A DNA stretch of 64,000 bases from contig JACJGO010000016.1 in the NCBI GenBank assembly GCA_014163555.1, positions 1 to 64,000 of the forward strand. The letters are read 5' to 3'. Origin of the DNA: Flavisolibacter longurius. Lineage in GTDB: Bacteria > Bacteroidota > Bacteroidia > Chitinophagales > Chitinophagaceae. Of this stretch, positions 1-42,259 are shown piece after piece. Position numbers and translations under genes: made by a program. How positions within the stretch are numbered: the stretch's first letter is position 1; each line of letters opens with the position of its first letter. Below the pieces are notes generated by a model that had not been told where the DNA came from, searched no databases, and saw only the letters and a list, made by a program, of their open reading frames with translations.

Positions 1-585
1 GTTGAACTGTTCAGCATCGGGTAAGAAAAGGGCGGTGATGATCATGTTAGAGAAGCTTCAAAGCTTATGCGGTTTTAACATCTTACTCCGCCCTTTGTTC
101 TTTCGAAATATTGGCTTAACCTCTTCCTTGAATTTACTCAATTGTAAACATAGGATCGGTTTGCTGCTATGCCGGCAGACGAAACGCCTCATCAGCTTTT
201 TGTTCGGTTATCAGCTGCGGTTCCGGCTGACCGAACGTAGATGAACGATATAATATATTTTGTACTTTGGTTTTTCAAAGGGCTTCAGTTGCCAAGCTGA
301 AGAATAAAAATTATAGGCACAGCAGCAAGCCGTTTACCGTTGTACATAAAACTCCTAGTTGTGCCAAGTGTTCTTTGCAACCCGTCATTCAACTAAAGAT
401 TATAGACCAGAAGGCGTCGGTGCCAACATGCTGGAAAAACATTGTTCCCCAATCCAACAAGAGCAGCGGTCCACCGGAGCGCCAGCAGCATCAACTAACC
501 ACCTGTAAAATAGCTACAACCAACCATGATTTGAACACACCACCCGTTGCGGGCCGGCGGACCTTTGTGGTCAAAAATTGACAAC
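1..585. other. Gap with no supported gene at the window start
   Basis: No convincing gene was found here. Two short open frames (2-244 and 267-581, plus strand) lack recognisable motifs and have a composition unlike neighbouring proteins, so they were not called. A possible Bacteroidota -7 element (GTACTTTG) sits near 259-266, but no gene starts just after it. Confidence 0.6.
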
Positions 586-1593
586 ATGGAACAAGTAAAA
601 AAGATAGCGCTGGGTACACAGGGTTTACAAGTCCCGCAGATCGGTTTGGGCTGCATGGGCATGACCGGTTTTGGTGAAGCGGATATGTACGGCAAGGCTG
701 ATGAAAGGGAAGCCATTGCCACCATCCATCGCTCCTTTGAGCTGGGCGGAAATTTCCTGGACACGGCCGATCTGTACGGCCCCTTCGAGAATGAACGATT
801 GATTGCCCAAGCGGTTGGGGGCAAACGCAGCCAGTATATCCTTGCCACCAAGTTTGGCTGGGAAATAAACGACGCCGGGCAGGTGACCTGGCAGATTAAC
901 GGCAAGCCTGACTACGTACGCAAATCCGTGGAGCGGTCACTAAAATACCTGGCTACAGACTACATTGACCTGTGGTACCTGCACCGGCTGGATAAAAGCA
1001 CACCGATCGAAGACACGGTGGGTGCGATGGCCGACCTGGTGAAAGAAGGAAAGGTTCGTTACCTGGGGCTGTCGGAGATGTCGGCCGAAACGGTACAAAG
1101 GGCCCACGTAGTGCATCCCATCACGGCCTTGCAAACGGAATACTCCCTGTTTGAAAGGGGGGTGGAAGCCCGTGGCATTATGAAAGCAATGGCAGACATG
1201 GGCATTGGCTTTGTCGCGTATTCGCCCTTGGGCAGGGGCTTTCTTTCCGGCAACATCCGGAGCATCGATGATTTGCCAACCGATGATTTCCGGCGGGCCA
1301 TTCCCCGCTTTCAACCGCAGCACTTCGGTAAAAACCTGGAACTGCTCGACGCCATTGAAGCGCTGGCAAAAGAGAAGGGCATTACGCCTTCGCAAATTGC
1401 TTTGGCATGGACCATCCATAAAGGCGCCCTGCCCATACCCGGTACCAAACGAAGGGCCTACCTGGAACAGAACATCGCCGCTGCTTCAGTAACGCTCAGC
1501 GATGCGGAAATGGAAAGCCTGGAGCGCATCGTACCGCTGGGGATTGATACCGGCAACCGGTATGATGAATTCAGTATGGGGCTGCTGGACTAG
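586..1593 (+). CDS. Aldo/keto reductase
   Basis: NADPH-dependent aldo/keto reductase of 335 residues, the usual length for the AKR11/AKR13-like group that reduces aldehydes and ketones in the cytoplasm. The catalytic tetrad is visible as Asp59 and Tyr64 (in FLDTADLYG), Lys89 (ATKFGW) and His133 (WYLHRLD). The C-terminal half has the cofactor-binding IPGTKR segment. An upstream in-frame TTG would add 13 residues with no family similarity, so ATG at 586 (MEQVKKIALG) was chosen. The AraC regulator downstream on the same strand may control it, which is a common pairing, but this is inference. The physiological substrate cannot be told from sequence. Confidence 0.93.
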   Translation: MEQVKKIALGTQGLQVPQIGLGCMGMTGFGEADMYGKADEREAIATIHRSFELGGNFLDTADLYGPFENERLIAQAVGGKRSQYILATKFGWEINDAGQVTWQINGKPDYVRKSVERSLKYLATDYIDLWYLHRLDKSTPIEDTVGAMADLVKEGKVRYLGLSEMSAETVQRAHVVHPITALQTEYSLFERGVEARGIMKAMADMGIGFVAYSPLGRGFLSGNIRSIDDLPTDDFRRAIPRFQPQHFGKNLELLDAIEALAKEKGITPSQIALAWTIHKGALPIPGTKRRAYLEQNIAAASVTLSDAEMESLERIVPLGIDTGNRYDEFSMGLLD

Positions 1594-29942: not shown

Positions 29943-30029
29943 ACCCAGTTCACGGGTTTACCTGCTCTCAAGTTCACATGTTTAAGAACTTGTAAACTCG
30001 TGAACCCGTGAATTTGTAAACTTGTCCTC
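29943..30029. repeat. GTGAAC/GTAAAC word repeats
   Basis: Units such as TTCACGGGTTTACC, AGTTCACATG, CTTGTAAACTCGTGAAC and CGTGAATTTGTAAACTTG form an imperfect inverted and direct repeat that fills the gap between the DGPF and sigma factor genes. Confidence 0.6.
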
Positions 30030-31307
30030 ATGCCCGGTTCTATCCAGCAGACAGTTGATCATTTTTTCCGGCATGAGTCGGGAAAGATGATCGCTGTTTT
30101 ATCAAAACTGTTAGGACTGCAGCATCTCCAGGCGGCACAGGACATTGCACAGGATACCTTGCTCCAGGCCCTGCAAACCTGGCGCATCAACGGACTGCCC
30201 GATAATCCCAGCGCCTGGCTATACCGGGTGGCCAAAAACAAAGCTGTTGATTATTTGCGCCGCGAAAAAACCTACCGCCGTGTAGAATCGGCGCAGGCCT
30301 ACCTTCTGCAATCCGAATTTGCCTTATACAATACCGTTAGCCAGATTTTTGAAGAAGACGCCATCACCGACAGCCAACTGCGGATGATCTTCGCCTGCTG
30401 CCATCCCTCCATCCCGGTGGAATCGCAAATTGCGGTGGCGCTGAAAACCCTCTGCGGGTTAAGCGTTTCAGAAATTGCCCGTGCTTTTCTGAAAGATGAC
30501 GAAACAATCGCCAAACGCATTTACCGTGCCAGGGAGAAAATGAAAGCAGAGAACATAACACTGGACCTGCCTTCTCCACGGGAATTACCCAAACGATTGG
30601 ATGCGGCCCTGCATTGTTTGTACCTGCTGTTCAACGAAGGCTATAATTCCTCACACCCGGAGCAACTGATCCGCGAAGACTTGTGTGAAGAAGCAATGCG
30701 TCTTGCTTACCTGCTTACACAAACAACATTGACCAATCTTCCCCGCACCAATGCTCTCCTGGCTCTTTTTTGTTTCCAGGCATCCCGCCTGCAGGCAAGA
30801 CTGGATGAAGGCGGGAATATCATCTTGCTAAAACACCAGGACCGGAGCAAGTGGTATCGTCCACTGATTCAAAAAGGATTTTCATTTTTGGATGCGGCCA
30901 CACAGGAAGAAACATCAATTTATCACCTTGAAGCGGCCATTGCTTACCTGCATGCGGTAGCACCTTCGTTTGAAGACACCGACTGGAAGGCGATCTATTA
31001 TCTCTACCAGGTTCTGGCCGATCATCACCCCAGTGTATTTGTTTTTTTGAACAAGGCCATCGCCGCTTCGTATGCTGTCGGAAAAGAAGAAAGCTTAAAA
31101 CAACTGGAAGCGATCAGAGGGTTGGAGAATTATTATCTCTATCATACTGCCATTGGCGAAATTTATGTTGGCCTGCAGCAGCCAGCCATAGCGAAGCAGC
31201 ATTTTCAGAAAGCGTTGTCACTGACACGGTCATTGGCGGAGCAACAGTTGTTGCAGGAAAAGATCAGGGCTTGTGCCGATGATCTCTCGGCGTTTTCGTT
31301 GTCTTAA
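30030..31307 (+). CDS. ECF42-type RNA polymerase sigma factor with long C-terminal extension
   Basis: 425-residue sigma factor. Region 2 (QDIAQDTLLQALQTW and PSAWLYRVAKNKAVDYLRR) and region 4 (LCGLSVSEIARAFLKDDETI, then AKRIYRAREKMK) lie in residues 1 to about 190. A ~230-residue C-terminal extension has LFNEGYNSSHP and helical repeats (TDWKAIYYLYQVL, PSVFVFLNKAIAASYAVGKE), the DUF6596/TPR-like part characteristic of ECF42. No anti-sigma gene is near, as is usual for this group, where the extension is thought to control activity. It should direct transcription of the adjacent DGPF gene and perhaps of the VOC/SRPBCC genes downstream. Confidence 0.92.
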   Translation: MPGSIQQTVDHFFRHESGKMIAVLSKLLGLQHLQAAQDIAQDTLLQALQTWRINGLPDNPSAWLYRVAKNKAVDYLRREKTYRRVESAQAYLLQSEFALYNTVSQIFEEDAITDSQLRMIFACCHPSIPVESQIAVALKTLCGLSVSEIARAFLKDDETIAKRIYRAREKMKAENITLDLPSPRELPKRLDAALHCLYLLFNEGYNSSHPEQLIREDLCEEAMRLAYLLTQTTLTNLPRTNALLALFCFQASRLQARLDEGGNIILLKHQDRSKWYRPLIQKGFSFLDAATQEETSIYHLEAAIAYLHAVAPSFEDTDWKAIYYLYQVLADHHPSVFVFLNKAIAASYAVGKEESLKQLEAIRGLENYYLYHTAIGEIYVGLQQPAIAKQHFQKALSLTRSLAEQQLLQEKIRACADDLSAFSLS

Positions 31308-31394
31308 GTGATTGAACCACGGAGGCACAAAGGCACGGAGGAACACATTGTCTCTGTGATACGCGGTGTTCTTCCTGTCCCTGTGGTGAAAAAA
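31308..31394. repeat. Word-like repeat (CACGGAGGCACAAAGG family)
   Basis: ACCACGGAGGCACAAAGGCACGGAG is followed by a loosely complementary GTTCTTCCTGTCCCTGTGGTG, making a large imperfect hairpin between the converging sigma factor and GlxA-like genes. It may help end transcription. Confidence 0.55.
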
Positions 31395-32384
31395 TTAATT
31401 CTCTACTAAAATTTCTCTCCGCACATATTTTGCCCGGTACTCCATCGGCGATAGACCCGTAAATTTTTTAAACGTGGTGCGAAAGGCTTTGCTGTCGCTG
31501 TAGCCGGCTTTGTACATGGCCTCATTCACATTCTCCCGTTCCCGCTCCAGTGTTTGTTTGGCGGCCTCTATACGTACCCGTTGCATGTACTCCACAATAG
31601 AATTGTACGTGGCCTTACGAAAACGGCGCTCCAGGTTGCGACGGCTCACACCCACTTCTTTTGCCAGGTCATCTACCGAAATCTTTTCGGCATAATTGGC
31701 TTCGATGTAGTCCTGCACTTTTTTCACCGCTTCGTCTTCGTGGCGTTTTTGCGGGCTGAAGATCATAAACGCCGATTGGTTGTTGCGTTCAATTTGTATT
31801 TCGAACACCTTGGAGCAGGTAATGGCCATATCACGGCCCGCCAGTTTTTCAACGATGTACAAAATAAGATTGAGCCAGGAGTAAGCACCGCCGCTGGTGT
31901 AAATGCCGCTGTCGTCGGTGATAATCTTTTCCGGTACCAGGTTTACATCCGGGAACATGCGCCGGAAGTTATCGGCTTCTACCCAGTGCGTTGCACAACG
32001 TTTGCCTTTCAGCAAGCCGGTTGCCGCCAACAGAAACACACCAATGCACAAGGACGCCACCGAAGCGCCGCCCTTGTACTGCTCCGCGATCCAGGGAAGA
32101 AACGCTTTGTTGTCCTCAATTACTTTTCCTTTTTCGCCGTGAATGGCCGGAATGATGATCAGGTCTGTTTGTTTTACATCGTCTATCAATACATCGGGAT
32201 GGATGCGAAACAGGCCGCGGTACATGGCCGTTTCCTGGCTTAACCCTACCAGTTGTACTTTAAACATCGGTGCCTTTCCGGCACGGGCCAGCATGGAATT
32301 GATCTCCGAAAAAATCTGGTGAGTGCCTTCGATGTTTACCAGGCTGCAGTTGCCTTCCGGAACCAGGATAGAGATGTGTTTCAT
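31395..32384 (-). CDS. GlxA-like AraC family regulator with DJ-1/PfpI domain
   Basis: 329-residue regulator. The N-terminal ~200 residues are a DJ-1/PfpI (glutamine amidotransferase-like) sensor domain, with the nucleophile-elbow-like ASLCIGVFLLAATGLLKGK and THWVEAD. The C-terminal AraC domain has VDDLAKEVGVSRRNLERRF and ANEAMYKAGYSDSKAFRTTF-like second HTH (NEAMYKAGYSDSKAFRTTFK), ending FTGLSPMEYRAKY. It is divergent from the VOC gene at 32511, which it may control (inference). Confidence 0.91.
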   Translation of the reverse strand: MKHISILVPEGNCSLVNIEGTHQIFSEINSMLARAGKAPMFKVQLVGLSQETAMYRGLFRIHPDVLIDDVKQTDLIIIPAIHGEKGKVIEDNKAFLPWIAEQYKGGASVASLCIGVFLLAATGLLKGKRCATHWVEADNFRRMFPDVNLVPEKIITDDSGIYTSGGAYSWLNLILYIVEKLAGRDMAITCSKVFEIQIERNNQSAFMIFSPQKRHEDEAVKKVQDYIEANYAEKISVDDLAKEVGVSRRNLERRFRKATYNSIVEYMQRVRIEAAKQTLERERENVNEAMYKAGYSDSKAFRTTFKKFTGLSPMEYRAKYVRREILVEN

Positions 32385-32444
32385 TTTTTAAAAATACGGG
32401 AACTCTTTGGCGTAATCAACCCCTTTAATCGGCGCATTTGCACA

Positions 32445-32475
32445 TTGCAAATGGTAAAAAAGCGGCGCACCTTTG
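32445..32475 (+). promoter_or_regulatory. Candidate promoter of the VOC gene
   Basis: TTG at 32445-32447 and CACCTTTG at 32468-32475, with a 20-bp spacer; the -7 element has one mismatch to TAnnTTTG. The leader would be about 30 nt. Confidence 0.4.
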
Positions 32476-32510
32476 TTGTGTGATGACGCTCTTTTCAAAA
32501 TCCTCCAAGC

Positions 32511-32879
32511 ATGAGCAACCGGGTCATTTATTTTGAGATTCCTTCTGCCAACCCCGATGCCAACCGGCAGTTTTATGAGCAGGTGTTTGGCTGGCAGTTT
32601 CAGCAGTGGGGAGCACAGGACTACTGGTTTGCCAATACCGGCGATGATGGGGAACGTGGCATTAACGGCGCCGTGATTCGTGAAGTGGGGCCGCAGCAAC
32701 CGGTGATCAACACCATTTCGGTGGACGATATTGACGAAGCTGTAAAACGCATTACCCAAGCCGGCGGCACGGTGTACAGGCCAAAAAAAGCCATACCAAC
32801 CGTTGGATGGATTGCGTTCTTTACCGATCCTGACGACAATATTTTTGGCCTGCTGCAGGAAGACAGGGAAGCGAGGTGA
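32511..32879 (+). CDS. VOC family protein (glyoxalase/bleomycin-resistance fold)
   Basis: 122-residue protein with the beta-alpha-beta-beta-beta fold: VIYFEIPSANPDANRQFYEQ, FGWQFQQWG, then the second half DEAVKRITQAGGTVYRPKKA and FTDPDDNIFGLLQE. This family binds metals and small molecules; the substrate is not known. It opens a run of small VOC/SRPBCC genes in the neighbourhood of the ECF42 sigma factor. Confidence 0.88.
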   Translation: MSNRVIYFEIPSANPDANRQFYEQVFGWQFQQWGAQDYWFANTGDDGERGINGAVIREVGPQQPVINTISVDDIDEAVKRITQAGGTVYRPKKAIPTVGWIAFFTDPDDNIFGLLQEDREAR

Positions 32880-32941
32880 GTGCAAGAGGCAATTGACAAC
32901 AAGCAATCGGCAAATAGCTATCACGATAACAACCATCAGTT

Positions 32942-33358
32942 ATGACACAGATCAATGCTTATCTCAATTTCAACGGCAACTGCCGTGAAGCCATGCAATT
33001 TTACAAAGACTGTTTTGGCGGTGAACTTTTTCTGCAGCCGATCAAAGACACGCCAATGGAAGCGCAATGCCCGGCGGGAAAGGAAAACGATATCATGCAT
33101 GCATCGCTTACCGGCGACGGCTTTGTGCTGATGGCTTCAGATATGATCGGTCCGCAGGGTTATCAACCGGGAAATAATTTTTCACTCAGCATCAATTGCC
33201 AGAGTGAAGAGCAGTTGCGATCATTGTTTGGTAAACTTTCCGAAGGCGGACAGGTGTTCATGCCCGTTCGTGAGCAGTTCTGGGGAGCTTTGTTTGGAGC
33301 GCTGTCTGATAAATTCGGTACTCAATGGATGTTAAACTACGATAAACCCAAAGCATAA
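32942..33358 (+). CDS. VOC family protein, PhnB-like
   Basis: 138-residue protein of the PhnB/3-demethylubiquinone-methyltransferase-like VOC group: INAYLNFNGNCREAMQFYKD at the start, DIMHASLTGDGFVLMASDM in the middle, and FWGALFGALSDKFGTQWML at the end. It is not expected to be a methyltransferase. The gap from 32880 has short CAATTG/CAATCGG repeats. It is 18 bp before the SRPBCC gene and probably in one operon with it. Confidence 0.9.
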   Translation: MTQINAYLNFNGNCREAMQFYKDCFGGELFLQPIKDTPMEAQCPAGKENDIMHASLTGDGFVLMASDMIGPQGYQPGNNFSLSINCQSEEQLRSLFGKLSEGGQVFMPVREQFWGALFGALSDKFGTQWMLNYDKPKA

Positions 33359-33376
33359 AACCAAAAACCATACATC

Positions 33377-33907
33377 ATGAAAATTTTAAAACGCATCCTG
33401 ATCGGCATTGTTGCCATTATAGCGGTATTGCTCCTGACAGCATTATTCGTTAACAAAGATTATAACGTAGAACGTTCGGTTTCCATCAACAAACCCAAAG
33501 AGCAGGTATTCTCTTTTGTAAAGCAGGCAAGAAACCAGGACCAGTATAACAAGTGGATCCAGGCCGATCCGCAGGTGAAAAAAACGTATCGCGGTGAAGA
33601 TGGAACGGTGGGTTTTGTATATGCCTGGGAAAGCAATGAAGTAGGAAAGGGCGAACAGGAAATCAGCAGCATTCGTGAGGGTGAGCAGATTGATTTTGCC
33701 CTGCGTTTCAAAGAACCGTTTGAAAGCAACGCCGCTGCCCGCATGATCACTGAAACCGTTGCCGACAACCAAACCAAAGTAAGCTGGCGCATGGAAGGCA
33801 GCAGTCCTTATCCCATGAACCTGATGAATCTTTTTGTGCCTTCTGTTTTGGGAAAAGATCTTGAAACCAGTCTGGCAAATTTGAAAACGGTGCTGGAAAA
33901 ACAATAA
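33377..33907 (+). CDS. SRPBCC family protein with N-terminal membrane anchor
   Basis: 176-residue protein. Residues 5-26 form a hydrophobic anchor (ILIGIVAIIAVLLLTALFV). The rest is a polyketide-cyclase-like SRPBCC domain (VERSVSINKPKEQVFSFVKQ, DGTVGFVYAWES, TKVSWRMEGSSPYPMNLMN). It probably binds a hydrophobic ligand near the membrane. It lies 18 bp after the PhnB-like gene. Confidence 0.88.
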   Translation: MKILKRILIGIVAIIAVLLLTALFVNKDYNVERSVSINKPKEQVFSFVKQARNQDQYNKWIQADPQVKKTYRGEDGTVGFVYAWESNEVGKGEQEISSIREGEQIDFALRFKEPFESNAAARMITETVADNQTKVSWRMEGSSPYPMNLMNLFVPSVLGKDLETSLANLKTVLEKQ

Positions 33908-33987
33908 GAGCAGTATTTTTCAAAATCACTTTCGACTTCTAACACTTCACATGTAAACCTTATTCATTCACCTTTTAATTCATAACA

Positions 33988-34428
33988 ATGGCAACCATGA
34001 TTTTTATCAACCTGGCGGTAAAGGATCTGCAACGTTCGATGGATTTTTTTACGCAGTTAGGGTACACGTTCAACAAACAATATACCGACGAGAAAGCGGC
34101 CTGCCTGGTGATCAGCGATACCATTTATGCCATGCTATTGACGGAACCATTCTTCAAAGGGTTTATCCCTGGAAAAGAGCTTGCCGATACCAGCAAAACA
34201 AAAGAAGTGTTGCTGGCGCTTTCTTCAGACAGCAAGGATGGTGTGAATGATTTAGCCGACAAGGCCATTGCGGCCGGTGGCAAACAGTTCCGCGATCCCG
34301 AAGACCATGGCTTTATGTACAGCCGCAGCTTTGAAGACCTGGATGGGCATGTGTGGGAAGTGGTATGGATGGACCCGGCTGCAGAGATGCCGCAGGAAGC
34401 CGCAACACCGGAAGTGGCGGCGCAATAG
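33988..34428 (+). CDS. VOC family protein
   Basis: 146-residue VOC protein: MIFINLAVKDLQRSMDFFTQ, LGYTFNKQYTDEKAACLVIS, and the second half DKAIAAGGKQFRDPEDHGFM, SRSFEDLDGHVWEVVWMD. The Glu in HVWEVVWMD is the usual metal ligand position. The tail is Ala/Glu-rich. It is likely co-regulated with the genes before it. Confidence 0.9.
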   Translation: MATMIFINLAVKDLQRSMDFFTQLGYTFNKQYTDEKAACLVISDTIYAMLLTEPFFKGFIPGKELADTSKTKEVLLALSSDSKDGVNDLADKAIAAGGKQFRDPEDHGFMYSRSFEDLDGHVWEVVWMDPAAEMPQEAATPEVAAQ

Positions 34429-34476
34429 GCAATTCGCAAAATGGAATAACATTTATAATATTCAATTGAAGAGAAC

Positions 34477-34510
34477 AAAAAGCGCATTCGAACCGGATGC
34501 GTTTTTTGTT
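34477..34510 (+). terminator. Rho-independent terminator after the VOC gene
   Basis: Arms 34477-34490 and 34494-34507 pair with one mismatch and one G-U pair (core GCATTCG/CGGATGC), followed by TTTTTTGTTTTT. It ends the VOC/SRPBCC run. Confidence 0.65.
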
Positions 34511-34639
34511 TTTAGGTCGCTACTGATTTGTTCCGCTACTTCAACACGGCTTTGTAAGGTTCAACATCATTGTGTAAAACATTTAACGGCCCTAAACCTC
34601 CTTTACAGTAAATTCAACCTTTCTTAAAAAGATCAGATC

Positions 34640-35047
34640 ATGTCCACGCAAAGCCGCAAATCATTTTTGACAACATCTGCTGTTATTACGGCCGGACTGG
34701 CCGCCAATGTGCTTTCCGCTTTTTCGGAGCCCGAAAAAAAAGGTATTATTCACCACGTATTTTTTTGGCTGAAGAACCCGGATTCAAAAGAGGACCTGGC
34801 AAAACTGCTTGCCGGGCTGGAAACCCTTCGCAAGATCAAGCAGATCAAAAAACTCTACATCGGCGTGCCGGCCGCTACCGAAAAACGCGATGTGGTGGAC
34901 CACAGCTACCAGGCTTCCGAACTGATGTTCTTCGATAACCTTGCCGACCAAAAGTCCTACCAGGACGATCCCATTCACCAGAAATTTATCGCCGATTGTT
35001 CGCACCTCTGGAGCAAGGTGGTGGTGTATGACGTGCAAGACATTTAA
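34640..35047 (+). CDS. Dabb (stress-responsive alpha-beta barrel) protein with signal peptide
   Basis: 135-residue protein. The N-terminus (QSRKSFLTTSAVITAGLAAN) is a Tat-like signal with a Ser-Arg-Lys-Ser-Phe core rather than a full twin-arginine motif. The mature part is a Dabb domain (IHHVFFWLKNPDSKEDLAKL, then VDHSYQASELMFFDN and YQDDPIHQKFI). The family forms dimeric ferredoxin-like barrels of mixed function. It is probably periplasmic. Confidence 0.87.
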   Translation: MSTQSRKSFLTTSAVITAGLAANVLSAFSEPEKKGIIHHVFFWLKNPDSKEDLAKLLAGLETLRKIKQIKKLYIGVPAATEKRDVVDHSYQASELMFFDNLADQKSYQDDPIHQKFIADCSHLWSKVVVYDVQDI

Positions 35048-35154
35048 ACACGGATTTTTACACGGATGGCACGAATTGTCATTGCTTGCATGCGGTTAAC
35101 CCGGGATGCCAGGCTTGTTGATCTGCGGTGGCTGGGTGAAAAATTTCTTTACAG

Positions 35155-35373
35155 TTACAAGTACTTCTTTAAAAACAGGAAGAGGCGCTGCCGAATCTCC
35201 GGGGCATCAAACATCGGCCCGTAATGCGGGGCACCGGGAACAATGATCAATTCATTCGGCACGCCGTTTACATTGAGCCAGCCACTCAGCAACCGCGATT
35301 GCGTGTTGGCGACAGATTCATCTTTCTCCCCGTTTACGATCAGGAAAGGCGGATCGCCTTTGTCCACATAGCT
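35155..35373 (-). pseudogene. C-terminal fragment of the alpha/beta hydrolase gene split by the IS110 element
   Basis: The last 73 codons of the hydrolase, cut from its 5' part by the insertion at 35374/36689. It carries the Asp of the triad (FLIVNGEKDESVA) and the His (PGAPHYGPMF). Without the element the frame runs straight from the fragment at 36691. A GTG at 35367 could start a 70-residue peptide, but it would lack the nucleophile and oxyanion hole. Confidence 0.88.
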
Positions 35374-35399
35374 GATTGCTATGGTAAAACCAAATGTTT

Positions 35400-36422
35400 T
35401 TAAATCGCTGTGGATAGTGGTGCCACATAGGGTTGCTGTTTGTTGACAACGGCTACCACACGCAATGCAATCTTGTTTCGAACGGCATTGAGAACGCTCA
35501 TGGTGTGTTTGCCTTCCGCTCGTTTTCGCTCGTAGTAGTGTTTAAACTCAGGGTAGTAGCGGACGGCAATGAGGGCACATAAGTGGAGCATGCATTTCAG
35601 TTCTTTATTGGCCATGGAATGAACCCGGTTGCGCCCTTTTATACTAATGCCGCTTGTATGTTGGAATGGCACCACACCAGCATAGGAGCCCAGCTGCTTG
35701 CCGCTGACCTTGAGAGCAAAGTTGTTCGTGCACCTGATGATGTGCAGGGCTGTTACATGTCCCACGCCTGGAACACTCACCAGGAGCTGATAGTTTCTGC
35801 GGATGCGCTCATCTTCTTGGACAAGTTGTTTTAACTGCTTTTCAATTTCCAAGATGGATTTTTTCAGCCCTTCAATCGCTGCTTTGTGGGCTTTTTCCAT
35901 GAGCGTTTGTACTGAGGCAGGATTGGAGAGCTTCAACTCTTTCAGATACGTCAAGATGCCATTCAGCTGGGTGAGAAGTTTACTGCGTGAGGCTAGCAGG
36001 TCTTTTAGCTTTAGAAATACGGGATCTAATACTGGCGTGGCTTTCAGCTCATCGGCGTGTTTGAGGGCATAACTGCACAGGCGCTGACTGTCCACTTTAT
36101 CGTTCTTGCCTCGAGCAATACCAAAGCTCCACTTGATGTGGGCTGCGTTGCCGATGTGAATGGGCAATCCATGTTCGCTGCAGTATTTCCAAAGCAGGCG
36201 GTGATACATGCCCGTGTTTTCAATCACCAGCAGGCTGTACTCATTAAAGTTCACCTTGAGCGATACCAGCCATTTGTGGAATGCTTTCAGCCCAGCAGCG
36301 GTATTGGAAAAGCGTTCCGTTAGCATAGGTTGCTTTTGGTGATTAACAACTTTTACGACCGACACATCAAAGTGCGGTTTGGAAACATCGATGCCTAGGA
36401 AAGTTTTTGTGTGCTGTACCAT
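35400..36422 (-). CDS. IS110-family transposase (recombinase)
   Basis: 340-residue recombinase, complete. The N-terminal RuvC-like DEDD domain shows Asp in FLGIDVSKPHFDV, Glu in VIENTGMYHRLLW and the Asp pair in GKNDKVDSQRL. A coiled-coil linker spans about 140-200. The C-terminal transposase_20 domain has LVSVPGVGHVTALHIIR and YAGVVPFQHTSGISIKGRNR, whose Ser (TSG) is the expected catalytic nucleophile. These enzymes join DNA with a bridge RNA guide rather than through terminal inverted repeats. All key residues are present, so the element may be active. Confidence 0.95.
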   Translation of the reverse strand: MVQHTKTFLGIDVSKPHFDVSVVKVVNHQKQPMLTERFSNTAAGLKAFHKWLVSLKVNFNEYSLLVIENTGMYHRLLWKYCSEHGLPIHIGNAAHIKWSFGIARGKNDKVDSQRLCSYALKHADELKATPVLDPVFLKLKDLLASRSKLLTQLNGILTYLKELKLSNPASVQTLMEKAHKAAIEGLKKSILEIEKQLKQLVQEDERIRRNYQLLVSVPGVGHVTALHIIRCTNNFALKVSGKQLGSYAGVVPFQHTSGISIKGRNRVHSMANKELKCMLHLCALIAVRYYPEFKHYYERKRAEGKHTMSVLNAVRNKIALRVVAVVNKQQPYVAPLSTAI

Positions 36423-36459
36423 CGTTTAGGTTTTGCTTTCACGGCAAATGAGCCAACCA

Positions 36460-36605
36460 TTTTACCTCATCGTCCTAGTCCTTGATAATGGGTCTAAAAG
36501 CCCGAATTGCTATAGGGACACTAAGGAAAAAACAGGCCGCGGATTGCATCAGCTAATGAGCCTGAAAGCTCTGACCGGACCTTAATGTGCCGCTGCCTGT
36601 GGTTA
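36460..36605 (-). ncRNA. Predicted bridge RNA of the IS110 element
   Basis: On the minus strand, ACAGGCAGCGG (36590-36600) pairs with CCGCGGCCTGT (36532-36542) over 10 of 11 bp and encloses an internal loop and an inner hairpin (GAGC 36568-36571 with GCTC 36558-36561). The loop sides carry candidate target guides: TAGCTGA (36549-36555), exactly complementary to the core plus right target of the insertion, and TCCGGTC (36573-36579), which matches the left target at 5 of 7 positions. A second hairpin (GGG/CCC, about 36492-36505) is flanked by ATAGCAAT (36506-36513), identical to the element's right end, and by AAGGA (36479-36483), complementary to its left end. This is the two-loop layout of IS621-type bridge RNAs. 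Ends are approximate. Confidence 0.75.
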
Positions 36606-36690
36606 GGTTTATTCACATGAAAAGGTGAAAAAGAAAGTAAGTAATGCTAATTTGCTGATAAGGGTATTACCATCATGCAAACCTAAAGGA

Positions 36691-37384
36691 CAGGGCTGGC
36701 CTTTTTCGCCAGGTCGGGTCGCTCAACCGGCACAGCGCCCAAGAGCATGGCAATGGAACTGCGGGCATTGTTTTCGGCCGTATCGGTACTCATCGAAGCC
36801 GCTACCAGGTCGGCCGGTCCATAAAAATCCAGCACGCATTTGATGTTGAAGGCAGGCTTGTTGCCACCGGTATAAAAATCAGGAATGCTGTTGTTCTGCG
36901 AAAGCCCGATCAGGGAAGCCAGGTGGCCGCCGGCCGAAAAGCCGATCAAGGCTATCCGGTTTTTGTCGTAGCCGTATTTACCGGCCTGGCGGTACAAAAA
37001 ATCCAAGGCCTGGTTGCAGTCCTGCACCTGCGCCGGGAAAGGTGCCGTTGTGCTAAAACGGTAATCGATGGAAGCCAGCGCATAACCACTATCAACAAAC
37101 GCTTTTACGGTCTGGCGCATGTAGCCCATGTCGGCATAATTGTCATTGTGGTTCCAGGCCCCGCCATGAATCCAAACCACCAGCGGATGATCCTTTTTAT
37201 TGCCAGCCGGGAGGTAGAGATCCAGCAGGTGTTTATCATGCGAATCACCGGCGTACGAAAGATTGCTGTGAAAAACCGTTCCCGGTGAAAAAAAAGATTG
37301 GATGGTTGTGGCTGCGTTTTGTGTCGATCCGTTTGAAAACACAAATAACAACTGTGCAAGAATGAAGAATGATTTTTGTTTCAT
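36691..37384 (-). pseudogene. N-terminal fragment of an alpha/beta hydrolase interrupted by IS110
   Basis: Signal-peptide-like N-terminus (KQKSFFILAQLLFVFSNGS) and an esterase/lipase fold of the BD-FAE type. The oxyanion motif is VVWIHGGAWNHN; the nucleophile is Ser in LIGFSAGGHLASL. The coding part stops at codon Pro-Val of KKASPV, where the element enters; translation would run on two codons into the element. Joined with 35155-35373 through the TC core it makes 915 bp, or 304 residues, a normal length for the family. The insertion separates Ser from Asp and His, so the product should be inactive. Confidence 0.9.
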
Positions 37385-37555
37385 AGCAATTGCAATGAAT
37401 TAAAAATAACGAATTCAAGGCAGGCTAAGAATGGATGGTTCTGGAACCTCAATCCTTTCTTACCGCTATTACCCTAACATTTTGCTAGGATTTGCGGCCC
37501 TTCCTTAATAGTTTCTTCACCTTTTCCGGTGTTGTGTTTGCTGATAGGATTGGCC

Positions 37556-38719
37556 ATGTCAATTAAAAATCTTCCCTTTCTTTTTATCCTGTTGTCGCTA
37601 TATAGTTTCTCCTGCGGAACTTCTGTTCGCAACATTTTCGGTACCGAAACACCACACGAGGCTTATGCCGAAGGTCTGGACGACCGCGGGCTGGACAAAA
37701 CGCCTGAGGGGCGGGCCTGGCTGGCGGCTTCAAAAGCGGCTTTGGAAGCACCCGTGACCGTTGCCTTGCCCTACCGGCAGCAGGGTTATTTTCATGCTGA
37801 CAAACCCCGGGCCCTGGGACTGCAGTTTGCCGCCAGGCGTGGGCAACGAATCAGCTTTACCCTTACTGGTAAAAGCGACAGCCTGCCCCTGTATGCCGAT
37901 ATATTCAGAGCGGGTGAAACCGGGGCACCCTTGCATTCGGCCGATACCAGTACCACCGCTTTCCATTTTGATGTTGACGAAGCCGGCGAGTATGTATTGC
38001 GGCTGCAACCGGAGTTATTTCGTAACGGCGAATACACCCTCTCGGTTTCGGTGGGCCCTTCGCTGGGCTTCCCGGTTTCCGGTAAAAAAGCCAGTGTAGG
38101 CAGTATCTGGGGTGATCAACGGGATGGCGGTAAACGCAGTCACGAAGGCATTGATATTTTCGCTCCTAAACTAACGCCGACGGTGGCTGCGGCAGATGGT
38201 TACATTACCGGTGTGCGGGAAGGTGGTATTGGTGGCAAAGTTGTTTGGCTGCGGCCTGAAGGAAAGCCCTATACCTTGTATTATGCCCACCTTGATCAGC
38301 AACTGGTGCAGGAAGGGCAGCGGGTGAAAAAAGGGGATGTGATAGGACTGGTGGGGAATACCGGCAATGCCCGCACCACACCAGCGCACCTGCATTTCGG
38401 CATTTATGGTTATGGCGGCGCCATTGATCCGTTGCCCTTTGTCAACCCTATGGTGAAAACGGCGGCGGCTGTAAAGGATAAAAAACTTACGACACAACTG
38501 AAACTGACAAAAGCACAAAAGCTTGCCGATGGAGGTTTGGTAAAGGCAGCCACCTACCTGGTACCGCTGGCGGCCAATGCCTCCGGTTATCTGGCCGAAG
38601 CCCCGGATGGAAGTCTTTTGCAGGTGCCATACAGCGCTGTGCAGGTAACTAAAGAGGCTGTAAAAAAGCTGGCTGATGTTGCATTAACAGGATCTGAAGC
38701 GGCGACCAAAAAATCCTGA
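37556..38719 (+). CDS. M23 family metallopeptidase lipoprotein
   Basis: 387-residue predicted peptidoglycan endopeptidase. Lipobox LYSFSC places it in the envelope. Residues ~40-180 form a beta-rich region; the M23 domain follows with RSHEGIDIFAPKLTPTVAAA (zinc ligands His and Asp) and TPAHLHFGIYGYGGAIDP (HxH). A C-terminal ~90-residue beta domain (SH3-like, LVPLAANASGYLAEAPDGS) could bind the wall. An upstream GTG at 37529 would add nine residues; ATG 37556 gives the better signal peptide. It is a single gene. Confidence 0.9.
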   Translation: MSIKNLPFLFILLSLYSFSCGTSVRNIFGTETPHEAYAEGLDDRGLDKTPEGRAWLAASKAALEAPVTVALPYRQQGYFHADKPRALGLQFAARRGQRISFTLTGKSDSLPLYADIFRAGETGAPLHSADTSTTAFHFDVDEAGEYVLRLQPELFRNGEYTLSVSVGPSLGFPVSGKKASVGSIWGDQRDGGKRSHEGIDIFAPKLTPTVAAADGYITGVREGGIGGKVVWLRPEGKPYTLYYAHLDQQLVQEGQRVKKGDVIGLVGNTGNARTTPAHLHFGIYGYGGAIDPLPFVNPMVKTAAAVKDKKLTTQLKLTKAQKLADGGLVKAATYLVPLAANASGYLAEAPDGSLLQVPYSAVQVTKEAVKKLADVALTGSEAATKKS

Positions 38720-38767
38720 CCGGTTTTGAAGAGTGCGGGGTAAATTAGAGTAACCAAACAGAACACT

Positions 38768-39001
38768 ATGCCACAAAGCCGCAACCGTCCCGGTCACCGC
38801 TACCAAAAACCCGCCGATGTACCCGCCAGCCAACGGGTACGCGGCCGCGTTATCTGGGCTATTCTCTTTGCCATCTTTGGTTTGGGAATTGCCTATTTCG
38901 CCGCCGGTGCTAGTTATTTGGTCATGGCGCTGGGAACTTTAGTAGGAGCCGCCATTGGTTACTACGCCGGAAAAAGCATGGAGCAGGATGCCAGGACGTG
39001 A
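38768..39001 (+). CDS. Small membrane protein of unknown function
   Basis: 77-residue protein with a basic N-terminal ~28 residues and two closely spaced hydrophobic helices (about 29-48 and 50-67, with glycine-rich GTLVGAAIGYYAGK). No family is recognised. It lies 48 bp after the M23 peptidase and may be on the same transcript. Confidence 0.7.
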   Translation: MPQSRNRPGHRYQKPADVPASQRVRGRVIWAILFAIFGLGIAYFAAGASYLVMALGTLVGAAIGYYAGKSMEQDART

Positions 39002-39035
39002 AACGGCAAACGTGAGAGGTGAAACCAATGGCCGT

Positions 39036-39389
39036 TTATTGCTCAATCATTCTTGATAACATTGCAAAGCATTTGTTCAGGCTTTCGCCTGTAGCACTAA
39101 GTTGTTCTTGTTTGAAGTAGCCCAGGTCGCATGCTGTCTCCAATGCTGCATCAATTTCTACTACTGAACCCCTGGCAACTTCAATAAAACGATTTCTTTC
39201 TGCTACCGACCGGCGAGAAGCACCCTCGGCTAAATTTAGCTTTACAGATAATGCCGCTCTTCTCATCTGGAGCACCATATTGAATTTTTCTTCTGCAGGA
39301 AGAAGTTTTGTTATCGTGTAAACTGCTCTCACAAGTTCACGGGTAGCTGCGTAAACATGAAGCGACTTATGAGCAAGGCTTAAGAACAT
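39036..39389 (-). CDS. Four-helix bundle protein (23S rRNA intervening-sequence protein family)
   Basis: 117-residue helical protein of the four-helix-bundle family (TIGR02436/S23 type), with KSLHVYAATRELVRAVY, the RAALSVKLNLAEGASRR motif and ARGSVVEIDAALETACDLG. Family members are encoded in rRNA intervening sequences or as free genes, as here; function is unclear. It is alone on the minus strand. Confidence 0.88.
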   Translation of the reverse strand: MFLSLAHKSLHVYAATRELVRAVYTITKLLPAEEKFNMVLQMRRAALSVKLNLAEGASRRSVAERNRFIEVARGSVVEIDAALETACDLGYFKQEQLSATGESLNKCFAMLSRMIEQ

Positions 39390-39451
39390 ATAGTATAGTT
39401 TTGGTTAAACGATTCTACTGTTTCACGTCTCACGTCTGCCCTTTGACGTCC

Positions 39452-39874
39452 TCACATCACATTCCACCGGTTGCGCATCAGGAAAGTAGTGATCATCACC
39501 CGCATCAGTTCAATGGAGATGCCCAAATGAAGGGCGGCAATACCCAAAACCTCGCTTTCGCTTTCCAATAGCTCCCCGTTAGCCGTTAGCAGTTCGCAGA
39601 GCATGGCAAAAAGGGTTTCTTTAAAATTATCCGGAATAAATGGTGCGCAGTATTCAATTACTTTCTGGTTGCCATAAGCGGCCAGCAGGGGCATGGCTTT
39701 ACCGGCCATGTGTTCAAGTGAATGATGCTGGAATTTCAGCGAAAGCGAAAGCATGAGCGAAAGACGACGGAACTGGAAATCGATCACCTGTTGGTCGGGC
39801 TGGCCAACCATGCAGCTTAAAATAATGGCAACAGAAGCTTCCTGCTCGTTTTCGATGGCAAGAGGTATTGTCAT
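39452..39874 (-). CDS. TerB-like helical protein of unknown function
   Basis: 140-residue all-helical protein. The C-terminal part (AMLCELLTANGELLESESEV, then LGIAALHLGIS) resembles the TerB-like tellurite-resistance helical fold with acidic residues that could bind a metal. No other ter genes are near, so tellurite resistance should not be assumed. Confidence 0.65.
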   Translation of the reverse strand: MTIPLAIENEQEASVAIILSCMVGQPDQQVIDFQFRRLSLMLSLSLKFQHHSLEHMAGKAMPLLAAYGNQKVIEYCAPFIPDNFKETLFAMLCELLTANGELLESESEVLGIAALHLGISIELMRVMITTFLMRNRWNVM

Positions 39875-40011
39875 GGGATAATTGATTAGAACACCAACAA
39901 GATACAGAACTGTTCTGAAGTTTTCTGCTTTGTGCAGGAATTACCGTAGGTAGCCCGGGTGTTTGAAACCGGGCCCGTTTCTTCGCCTATTTTTACAGCA
40001 ATCTTTCCAAT

Positions 40012-40500
40012 ATGAGCATCCGGATTTTTATTACAGGCGGAACCTTCGACAAAGAGTACAATGAACTGGACGGCCAGCTGTTTTTTAAAGATTCGCACCT
40101 GCCCGAAATGCTGGAACTGGGCCGCAACCTGGTGCCAGTGGAGGTCCGAACGCTGATGATGGTGGACAGCCTGGAAATGACCGACGATGACCGTGACCTG
40201 ATTGCAGAGCATTGCCGCAAAAGCAAGGAAGATAAAATCATCATCACCCACGGCACCGATACCATGGCCGATACCGCAAAGCTGCTGGCCAACAAGGTGA
40301 AGGATAAAACCATTGTCATTACCGGCGCCATGATCCCCTATAAATTCGGTTCATCGGACGGATTGTTTAACCTGGGCAGCGCCATGGCCTTTGTGCAGAC
40401 CCTTCCCCCCGGTGTGTACGTCGCCATGAACGGCCGCTATTTTAATGCGGAGAATGTGCGCAAGAATAAGGAGACCGGCGTGTTTGAAGAACTGGATTGA
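40012..40500 (+). CDS. Asparaginase-like protein, N-terminal domain only
   Basis: 162-residue protein matching only the N-terminal half of type I L-asparaginases (normally about 330 residues). It keeps ITGGTFDKEYNE with the Thr nucleophile position, and IITHGTDTMADTAKLL with the second Thr-Asp motif, plus VITGAMIPYKFGSSDG. The C-terminal domain is missing but the stop codon is clean. Short forms of this kind are known as stand-alone genes in Bacteroidota, so I read it as an intact gene. Activity as an asparaginase is uncertain. Confidence 0.85.
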   Translation: MSIRIFITGGTFDKEYNELDGQLFFKDSHLPEMLELGRNLVPVEVRTLMMVDSLEMTDDDRDLIAEHCRKSKEDKIIITHGTDTMADTAKLLANKVKDKTIVITGAMIPYKFGSSDGLFNLGSAMAFVQTLPPGVYVAMNGRYFNAENVRKNKETGVFEELD

Positions 40501-40601
40501 TTCTTGAAGAAAGCCATCGGGTAATAAAGCATCCGGAAGAGAAATTTTTTTGATGAGAAGGGTGGCAACACTCACCACTGACCACTCACCATAACGGTGT
40601 C

Positions 40602-41639
40602 ATGAAAGCTGCAATGGCTGTCATATCTTTTTTGCTTTTGTTTTTGTTGTCAACGGCACTTGCTTTTGCGCAAGTGAGCGGCTGTACCGATCCTGCGGCG
40701 CTAAATTATAATCCCTCTGCTACGGTCAACGATGGCAGTTGCACCTATCCTAAAACAATCTATGCGCCACCTGTAAAAACGGACCCGCTTTCCGCTGTGC
40801 TGGACGAAAGCAGCGGCCTGCAGTGGGCCGGCGGCAGCCTGTGGAGCTTTAATGATGGCGGCAATGCGGCAGTGCTGTTCCGCATGGATACGGCATCGGC
40901 AAAAATTTTACAAACGGTTACGCTGGAAGGCGCCACCAATGTGGATTGGGAAGACATCGCATTTGACGGCACCCACCTGTACATTGGTGATTTTGGAAAC
41001 AATGCCGGCAACCGCAAGGATCTGAAAATTTACCGGTTCCCATTGCAAGTTATTCCGGACCCCAAACTGGAAAAATCATTTCAGGTTCCTTCCAAAAATA
41101 TTGAGGTGATCAGCTTTCGATATGTCGATCAATCACAACCGCCTGTTGGCAATAGTGTCAATCGCACAAAATTCGATTGCGAAGCCATGATCGTTGCCGG
41201 TGGAAAGATTCACCTGTTTACCAAGAACTGGATCGACAACAATACCACGCATTATGTGATCGATAGTGTGAAGGAAGGCAACTATATCGCTAAACCCCTG
41301 GAAACACTTGCTACCAATTACCTGGTGACGGCTGCTGATCAATGGCCGGGATCGGACACAGTAGTACTGATCGGTTACCAAGCCCGCGGTACCGGTGCTC
41401 ATTTTATTCACCTGCTTACTGGTTTTGGCAAGGGGCTTTATTTCAACGGAAACAAACGCCGCATCGATCTACCCAGCGTGGCTGAAATTGGCCAGGTGGA
41501 AGGCCTTACGTTTCGCAACAACCGTTACGGCTATATCAGCAATGAAAAATTTGAGCGGACAATGTTTGGATTAACGCTTTCTGTCCCTCCAAAGCTGCAT
41601 GCTTTTCATATCGATCAGCTAGTCGGTGACAAACCCTGA
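40602..41639 (+). CDS. Secreted propeller-like protein with Cys motif
   Basis: 345-residue secreted protein. A signal peptide (about 1-23, ending in LAFAQ) is followed by the motif GCTDPAALNYNPSATV with DGSC, a Bacteroidota surface-protein motif. The rest is a propeller-like domain with LDESSGLQWAGGSLWSFND, NVDWEDIAFDGTHLYIGDFG and VEGLTFRNNRYGYISNEKF. No C-terminal T9SS sorting domain is seen on this copy. A decayed paralogue follows at 41755. Enzymatic function is unknown. Confidence 0.82.
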   Translation: MKAAMAVISFLLLFLLSTALAFAQVSGCTDPAALNYNPSATVNDGSCTYPKTIYAPPVKTDPLSAVLDESSGLQWAGGSLWSFNDGGNAAVLFRMDTASAKILQTVTLEGATNVDWEDIAFDGTHLYIGDFGNNAGNRKDLKIYRFPLQVIPDPKLEKSFQVPSKNIEVISFRYVDQSQPPVGNSVNRTKFDCEAMIVAGGKIHLFTKNWIDNNTTHYVIDSVKEGNYIAKPLETLATNYLVTAADQWPGSDTVVLIGYQARGTGAHFIHLLTGFGKGLYFNGNKRRIDLPSVAEIGQVEGLTFRNNRYGYISNEKFERTMFGLTLSVPPKLHAFHIDQLVGDKP

Positions 41640-41754
41640 TATGAGTAAATGCTCGCCGCTTTTTATACTTCCGCCATCTGTTCGTTTGTTTAAAAAACCT
41701 TGTATCCGTTTTTATTGTACGTTGTTCGCTATTAACAGCCACCCATCAGTACTT

Positions 41755-42259
41755 ATGAGAATGAATAACGTGCAGAAATATATCGCCATGTTCGCGATGG
41801 CCAATCTGGCCCTGGTACAAGTTAGCAGTGCGCAAATCAGTGGTTGCACAGATCCCCGGCAGCGAATAATCATAATGCCGGCGCTACGGTCAACAACAGA
41901 AGTTGCGAGTACAATCCTACGTATTATACACCGGAAATAAAGCTTAATCCACTTTGCAGTACACTCAACGAAACCAGTGCCCTGCAAATGCCCGGCGGTT
42001 CGTTATGGACCCTGAACGATGGTTGCGGTGCCGCAGCCATCTACCGGATTGATACCACGGCCGGTACCGGAAATGAACGTTACGCTTTCGGATTTTGTCA
42101 ACAGATGGCAAACTGCTGACGGAAATAAGAGGCCAGCAACTGACTGCCGGCACCAACCGGGTTCGTTTCCCAAAAACATTCAATCGGCATACAACAGTGG
42201 TGTTGGAAATAGTGAGCTGCGGCGAAAGTGAGGCGATGCTGGTCAGCGTGCAGCAATAA
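41755..42259 (+). pseudogene. Decayed paralogue of the propeller-like gene with a T9SS-type tail
   Basis: Three reading frames carry successive parts. Frame 1 (41755-41857) has a signal peptide and QISGCTDP. A 2-bp insertion near 41855-41860 shifts to a frame with AANNHNAGATVNNRSC and LNETSALQMPGGSLWTLNDG, parallel to the intact gene at 40602. Most of the propeller is then missing. A third frame (about 42077-42259) reads LSTDGKLLTEIRG, QQLTAGTNRVRF and EAMLVSVQQ before TAA, resembling a T9SS type A sorting tail. It thus has two frameshifts and an internal deletion. Confidence 0.8.

Follow-up and report, generated by a model that had tools for sequence, protein, structure and literature searches.

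A predicted bridge RNA in an IS110-group element of Flavisolibacter longurius has guides that covary with insertion sites among Bacteroidota relatives

The window, by which we mean the whole 64,000-nt stretch of Flavisolibacter longurius DNA analysed here, holds an IS110-group mobile element inserted into an alpha/beta-hydrolase gene. The ends of the element are conserved in aligned relatives. Its recombinase gene, the two copies of the core dinucleotide and the two parts of the interrupted gene lie as follows:

35155..35373, minus strand: interrupted alpha/beta-hydrolase gene, 3' part, ending with the stop codon at 35155-35157 (the joined translation ends ...LFLFLKKYL)
35374..36688, minus strand: IS110-group element, 1,315 bp including the right-hand core TC at 35374-35375
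35400..36422, minus strand: IS110-family DEDD recombinase, an open frame of 340 amino acids (PF01548, E 6.3e-19; PF02371, E 1.3e-16)
36689-36690, minus strand: left-hand core TC, outside the counted 1,315 bp
36689..37384, minus strand: interrupted alpha/beta-hydrolase (BD-FAE) gene, 5' part including the left-hand core (Pfam BD-FAE, E 7.7e-65)

Joined at their common TC, the flanks of the element read ...KKASPVSYVDKGDPP..., gapless at the site against the continuous orthologue in a congener (L097), and the rejoined hydrolase is a single open frame through ...KKASPVSYVDKGDPPFLIVNGEKD.... The congener's protein is 86% identical to the interrupted hydrolase. Orthologue alignments crossed the insertion site in all four compared (L097-L100), the base-by-base reading being for L097 only. 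Both the limits of the element and its empty site can be read from this sequence comparison. The left flank ends ...GCCCTG-TC and the right flank begins TC-AGCTATG..., with duplication limited to the core; a core dinucleotide common to target and donor, without target duplication, is a feature of the IS110 bridge-RNA group. Elsewhere in the window, 40602-41639 and 41626-42119 (plus strand) are neighbouring, similar reading frames (QVSGCTDP... and QISGCTDP...), the second of which appears fragmented.

The recombinase is of the DEDD/RuvC-like kind, with a C-terminal Tnp domain and a catalytic serine, as in other members of the group. Its residues D12, E68, D108, D111 and S257 align with D11, E60, D102, D105 and S241 of IS621 and are invariant across 10 aligned recombinases (window included). 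We take D11, E60 and D105 to be further catalytic residues of IS621, beside D102 and S241. The latter two are described as catalytic in part of the published account of IS621. A PDB sequence search at E 0.001 matched only IS621 (8wt6, E 3.7e-21) and ISCro4 (9t56, E 7.9e-20), and Foldseek with the predicted recombinase model (mean pLDDT 81, the segment around S257 being poorly predicted) matched IS621 8wt9 along its length (E 2.9e-17, TM 0.70).

To characterize the element's relatives, we searched several collections. Of 294 genomes sampled from the host family, 29, among them the element's own, had a recombinase relative at E 1e-30, the closer ones being 46-63% identical. The count for the host order at E 1e-80 was 4 of 396 genomes, again with its own included, and the same threshold gave nothing beyond the element itself in 395 class and 395 phylum genomes, which are samples of larger groups. 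The recombinase sequence alone, used as query, retrieved no relative from GTDB genome contigs or viral contigs. An alignment of ten recombinases (A1) returned 56 loci from GTDB contigs and one distant locus from viral contigs; as the 56 include Chitinophagaceae, Ferruginibacter, Pedobacter, Runella, Arcicella and Emticicia, the clade extends past one family. The plasmid collection yielded 939 matching records, every one below 60% identity. A literature search by title and abstract start, with most subscription papers outside its coverage, found nothing on this Bacteroidota IS110 clade.

From the 56 loci we dropped L040, whose upstream region is cut at a contig end, and L066, L067, L076 and L078-L089, which are fragments or distant. 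Copies L004-L009, L011, L012 and L033 gave way to GTDB genome-contig records of the same length. Extra copies of the L069 element (L070, L072, L073, L075 and L077) were used only for the comparison of repeat insertions, and the distant relatives L014-L031 and L090 were left out of the guide test described below.

The left end of the element, 5' of the recombinase gene, contains a predicted structured non-coding RNA, another feature of the group. An earlier note, made from the letters of the window, had proposed that this region folds into the target-loop and donor-loop layout of IS621-type bridge RNAs, and all of its coordinates proved correct when re-read on the sequence. The parts of the predicted structure are:

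36450..36608, minus strand: body of the predicted bridge RNA, comprising the closing stem and the target- and donor-binding loops, from covariance model R1 (132.4 bits, E 7.1e-27)
36600..36606, minus strand: closing stem, 5' arm CTAACCA, pairing with 36453-36459 (helix 1, 84.5% of cells paired)
36453..36459, minus strand: closing stem, 3' arm TGGTTGG (helix 1)
36590..36598, minus strand: target-loop stem, 5' arm, pairing with 36534-36542 (8 of 9 standard pairs in the window, by reading)
36534..36542, minus strand: target-loop stem, 3' arm (helix 2)
36516..36526, minus strand: donor-loop stem, 5' arm CCTTAGTGTCC, pairing with 36465-36475 (helices 5 and 6, with 85.4 and 85.6% of cells paired)
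36465..36475, minus strand: donor-loop stem, 3' arm GGACGATGAGG (helices 5 and 6)

Aligned left ends of 39 elements, the window's among them, had a common order of closing stem, variable-loop stem, T-rich linker and conserved-loop stem. A covariance-model check, which the earlier note had suggested, was made with model R1, built on 33 relatives with the window left out; from relatives only, it found the window's RNA at 132.4 bits, the second-best match within the 64-kb window scoring 9.4 bits. Applied to 24 further loci, mostly more distant, R1 matched 14 at E 0.01 or better. The 2.8-kb locus L023 (G165:C38) had model matches at 92-251 (minus strand), 1294-1450 (minus strand) and 170-326 (plus strand; weak, E 0.004), which possibly represent two adjoining elements.

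Covariation in homologues had been set beforehand as a test of the proposed fold, and it was found: in a structure of 35 pairs, 28 had changed on both sides, compared with 14.1 in shuffled alignments (0/500 shuffles as high). The proportion of cells paired (91.1% versus 81.6% shuffled) and the covariation score (0.300 versus 0.151) were likewise reached in 0/500 shuffles, and sliding the partners by 1-3 columns left at most 48.4% paired. Further pair types were barely raised (50 versus 45.0 shuffled, 18/500), which we count against the bridge-RNA reading. The 35 pairs were drawn by hand from the aligned sequences, so one of the controls leans towards that structure. RNAalifold, run on an alignment of 35 distinct RNAs (A2), gave 17 pairs, 15 of them with compensatory changes. 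The target-loop stem (helix 2) had double changes in 8 of its 9 pairs and 95.6% of cells paired. Across the relatives, then, the alignment shows a conserved structure.

The single-sequence fold of the window region was not better than shuffles (z -0.66; 51/200 as good or better), and Rfam gave 0 matches at the gathering score (30000-42000) and 0 up to E 1 (36300-36800). On the 5' side of the target loop, the window has a 5-bp hairpin (-3.2 kcal/mol) that is clear in some relatives and absent from others; that the IS621-type 5' stem-loop is weak or absent in many relatives also counts against our reading. At 36516-36542 (minus strand), the T run after the target-loop stem resembles an intrinsic terminator and is kept in relatives as the donor-loop linker.

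Two segments of the target loop were read as guides for the insertion site:

36573..36580, minus strand: left target guide GTCCGGTC, read against GCCCTG plus core TC; not distinctive in the window alone
36549..36555, minus strand: right target guide TAGCTGA, complementary to core TC followed by AGCTA (5/5 non-core bases)

The exact 7-nt complementarity on which the earlier note had built its case was borne out: reverse-complemented, TAGCTGA reads TCAGCTA, the core plus right target at 35369-35375. The partial left-target match that it had described is also present, re-read here as GTCCGGTC against GCCCTGTC, with 6 identities, 1 wobble and 1 mismatch in 8. Counted over non-core bases, the window's left guide matched 4/6 at its own site, 5/6 at the L045 site and 4/6 at the L048 site; because it fits the L045 site better than its own, it proves nothing by itself. 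For the right guide the score was 5/5 where the element sits and no higher than 3 at any of the other 30 sites. Of 20,000 7-mers drawn at random from the window, 415 had their reverse complement within the 266-nt region. The guide evidence from the window element alone is moderate, and the proof comes from relatives.

To compare guides with sites across the clade, we used 39 aligned rows, 35 of which had both flanks (without L037, L038, L059 and L064); removing four guide-pair repeats left 31. The left end of L042 was placed by hand, and the left flank of L053 is ambiguous (it has a second copy of the end motif). Over these 31 distinct guide pairs, the right target guide matched 4.61 of 5 non-core bases at the own site versus 1.80 when sites were swapped (0/100,000 permutations), with 143 matches in total against 86 in the best of 100,000 permutations. 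The left target guide matched 4.23 of 6 versus 2.45 swapped (0/100,000 permutations; 131 matches in total, best permutation 105). The right guide has a sharp edge, positions 1-5 from the core matching in 27, 30, 28, 29 and 29 of 31 elements and position 6 in 1 of 31. It scored 5/5 in 21 elements, 4/5 in nine and 2/5 in one (L065), the incomplete matches counting against the reading. L065 was the one clear exception in 31 when the other insertions were compared with their own guides, a comparison also suggested in the earlier note; the sites otherwise matched. Left guides were loose, matching 3, 4, 5 and 6 of 6 bases in 7, 13, 8 and 3 of 31 elements, and we count this against the reading.

Since the elements are kin, the permutation counts overstate independence, and a thinned set of nine elements at most 75% identical is the fairest; there, the right guide gave 0/20,000 and the left guide 1/20,000. 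Some registers had been set by hand, namely the left target guide of L010, L032, L062 and L013 and the right target and right donor guides of L069 and L074. Without the hand-adjusted rows (27 remain), both the right and the left guide gave 0/20,000 permutations. Moving the register of the right guide by 1-3 bases brought it down to the swapped level; for the left guide, a shift of one base left a small excess (1.78 versus 1.42) and a shift of two left none. Target-loop guides for both strands covary with the insertion site, as is characteristic of the group, the left guide more loosely than the right.

The element is the sole Transposase_20 match in its own 5.66-Mb genome, and its being single-copy there counts against the main reading. 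We also considered a repeated target: GNCCNGTCAGCTA had no further exact match in that genome and its 54 one-mismatch matches stood at the control level (55), so this candidate was rejected.

The second loop would read the joined ends of the element itself:

36505..36513, minus strand: left donor guide ATAGCAATT, read against right end ATAGCAA plus core T, the last base a wobble
36479..36483, minus strand: right donor guide AAGGA, complementary to core TC and the CTT that begins the left end
36478..36478, minus strand: handshake base C of the donor loop, complementary to the pre-core target G

Here too the earlier reading held, in that ATAGCAAT (36506-36513) is the right end plus the first core base and AAGGA, reverse-complemented, gives TCCTT, the core plus left end. 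Over its seven pre-core bases the left donor guide is identical to the right end in 38/38 rows (34 when repeat copies are left out), with three versions among them (ATAGCAA in 15, ATAACAA in 15 and ATAGAAA in 8), so that guide and donor covary as well. Donor-loop guides that read the joined ends of the element itself are a further feature of the group; the right donor guide was checked in the window.

The position after the right donor guide is the handshake guide in IS621, according to passages of PMC11208158. In our alignment this base pairs with the pre-core target base in 39/39 rows (C-G in 37, T-A in L013 and A-T in L037), giving three base-pair states and two informative changes. The clade thus offers a natural handshake test, in which both elements with a changed pre-core target base had also changed the handshake base. 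At the position of the second IS621 handshake base, pairing occurs in only 1/38 rows (donor loop) and 4/38 rows (target loop), a difference from IS621 that counts against the reading. The first target-loop base pairs with the donor in 38/38 rows but is invariant and therefore uninformative.

The core is TC in 33, AC in three and CC in three of 39 rows on the left side, and TC in 36 and AC in two of 38 on the right; its second base is C in every row, and the CT core of IS621 and close orthologues is absent here. The AC core of Chitinophaga sedimenti goes with joint changes in the RNA, the left target guide ending in GAC, the right target guide ending in GT and the right donor guide reading AAGGT. 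Four loci (L013, L057, L059 and L063) have AC or CC at the left junction, TC at the right junction in the three that are readable, and the left version in the left target guide. Left and right cores differ in L013, L057 and L063. The left target and right donor guides of L013 read AC and its right target guide TC, each fitting its own-side junction, while L057, L059 and L063 have CC in the left target guide and TC in the right donor guide.

These covariations bear on two other accounts of the upstream region. It might serve solely to regulate the recombinase gene, as a structured 5' leader or attenuator, the guide matches being due to chance; its place directly 5' of the recombinase gene, the terminator-like T run after the target-loop stem and a window-only fold no better than shuffles would all fit. 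A leader, however, has no reason to track flanking host DNA, and the covariation of the guides with insertion sites across elements (0/100,000 permutations) and of the donor guide with the right end (38/38 rows) makes this account very improbable. The region may have a regulatory side role besides guiding.

We consider it similarly improbable that protein-DNA contacts recognise the site and that the RNA matches the flanks through capture or copying of flanking sequence by the left end. Some rewriting process does exist, as target loops vary among close relatives, yet two separate segments match, of opposite sense and both enclosed by a covarying stem, where a captured flank would be one contiguous copy, and the right match has a sharp 5-base limit. 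Moreover, the recombinases are mostly 40-66% identical to the window's, yet their sites are quite different.

The bridge-RNA interpretation given in the earlier note is supported by these sequence comparisons, and the window element is very probably a mobile element of the IS110 group that works with a bridge RNA. Such an element may be expressed from a promoter formed when its ends are joined, and we located the two boxes of a candidate:

36678..36685, minus strand: TAGGTTTG, -7 box (TAnnTTTG) of the predicted junction promoter, by sequence reading
35391..35394, minus strand: TTTG, -33 box of the same predicted promoter, with 20 bp between it and the -7 box after end joining

Among 34 joined junctions, 30 had TTG at the exact 20-bp spacing and 30 the exact TAnnTTTG; the four without TTG and the four without exact TAnnTTTG count against the prediction. 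The full TTTG stood at the fixed spacing in 24/34 junctions, where 2,000 shuffles gave a mean of 0.15 and a maximum of 3. The Bacteroides fragilis primary sigma factor consensus is TTTG near -33 and TAnnTTTG near -7, and in Flavobacterium johnsoniae the -7 part was confirmed and the -33 part could not be identified, as stated in passages of PMC7366714. The joined ends of IS621 form a sigma-70-like promoter (part of PMC11208160). We predict that the joined ends of the window element would create a promoter of Bacteroidota type.

By analogy with IS621, the recombinase would excise the element as a circle. Its right end, core TC and left end would be joined into the promoter (TTTG, 20 bp, TAnnTTTG), which would transcribe the left end, and the RNA, predicted at about 220 nt, would bind the recombinase. 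The donor loop would pair with the joined ends via ATAGCAATT and AAGGA and the target loop with the site GCCCTG-TC-AGCTA via GTCCGGTC and TAGCTGA. The recombinase, having the catalytic residues of IS621, would then swap strands at the 2-bp core, the handshake base assisting. We infer the circle, the transcript, RNA binding and the chemistry from IS621.

It is well supported that the element is a case of a mechanism already published in 2024 and not a new kind of system. The recombinase is homologous end to end to that of IS621 from Escherichia coli (E 3.7e-21; TM 0.70), with about 22% identity in the structural alignment. The donor-loop and target-loop layout is that of IS621, as the earlier note had maintained, and strand logic and loop order agree with what passages of PMC11208160 and PMC11208158 describe for it: the RNA lies in the left end, with the target loop followed by the donor loop, and left guides pair with the bottom strand (thus having top-strand sequence) and right guides with the top strand. 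A common 2-bp core, one handshake base and a promoter from joined ends (predicted for the window) are likewise shared. Bridge RNAs have been predicted for 85.7% of catalogued IS110 elements (part of PMC11208160). ISCro4, for which a synaptic complex has been solved (PDB 9t56), is alike at the recombinase level (E 7.9e-20, TM 0.70-0.71).

Several traits nonetheless set the clade apart from IS621. The window core is TC (NC in the clade) versus CT in IS621, whose T is almost invariant; passages of PMC11208158 describe the CT core for IS621 and related orthologues, and none of the publications used here demands it of the group as a whole. The clade's right target guide spans five non-core bases, compared with the core plus two in the IS621 structure (part of PMC11208158). 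Orthologues are reported with four to seven right-side pairs (part of PMC11208160), and a 7-nt right guide is therefore inside the published range. The promoter is of predicted Bacteroidota type rather than sigma-70, and the target in the window is a coding gene rather than a REP element.

Foldseek also matched the recombinase model to TIGR-Tas proteins (TasR, TasH; E 6.5e-06, TM 0.53), which differ in combining a Tas protein with a tandem guide array and no transposon recombinase, according to part of PMC12045711. IS1111-group seekRNA elements (ISEc11) have in common with the window element the recombinase superfamily (DEDD) and the RNA-guided principle, their RNA being encoded by the element and addressing both strands of the target with segments of its own. 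They have RNA 3' of the gene, subterminal inverted repeats (7-17 bp) and reversed guide order (passages of PMC11187229). It is most improbable of all that the window element is of this type, as its RNA lies 5' of the gene, the stop codon is 26 bp from the element end, which leaves no IS1111-type RNA region downstream, and its bottom-strand-pairing guide comes before the top-strand one, the IS110 order in the same source.

The bridge-RNA reading of the clade has implications beyond the single locus, even though the mechanism itself is already published. About thirty natural insertions provide a clean comparative case for bridge-RNA targeting among elements of the Bacteroidota, here with a non-CT core and a predicted circle-junction promoter of the phylum's own type. 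Artificially lengthening the right-guide pairing of IS621 by three bases raised recombination (passages of PMC11208158); clade elements naturally bear a right guide of five non-core bases. With a recombinase about 22% identical to that of IS621 and another core, the element could be an orthogonal tool. We offer, as a tentative idea that we hold to be somewhat less likely than its negation, that the Bacteroidota clade reads DNA by rules unlike those of IS621: an NC core, specificity mostly from the 7-nt right guide, and left and right junction cores that may differ (AC or CC versus TC), each target guide tracking its own-side junction. If so, the clade would represent a naturally occurring form of bridge recombination that uses another core and targets from the right side, and would be useful as an orthogonal system.

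Repeat insertions gave a further view of targeting. Seven Chitinophaga sedimenti copies had GTGAC before the left end (7/7) and ACACAAC after the right end (6/7, the seventh one change off), and three Ferruginibacter copies had TTGTGTC and TCACTCA in common. Nine right-end fragments from two Pedobacter species, known from their flanks alone, each ran on into TCATGCTGA and then diverged. These come from Pedobacter psychrodurus (L080-L084, L086 and L087) and P. cryotolerans (L078 and L079), where contigs stop inside an IS110 element. Because some Pedobacter flanks run into palindrome-like sequence, the element there may target an intergenic repeat, as IS621 does with REP elements. The differences in target loops among close relatives point to some process that rewrites these loops, the donor guides meanwhile staying matched to the ends. 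In Pedobacter sp. Leaf41 (L053), the left-end motif CTTTAGATTTG occurs twice, the second copy 19 nt upstream of the one that belongs to the element. The arrangement looks as though one element had inserted beside the end of another.
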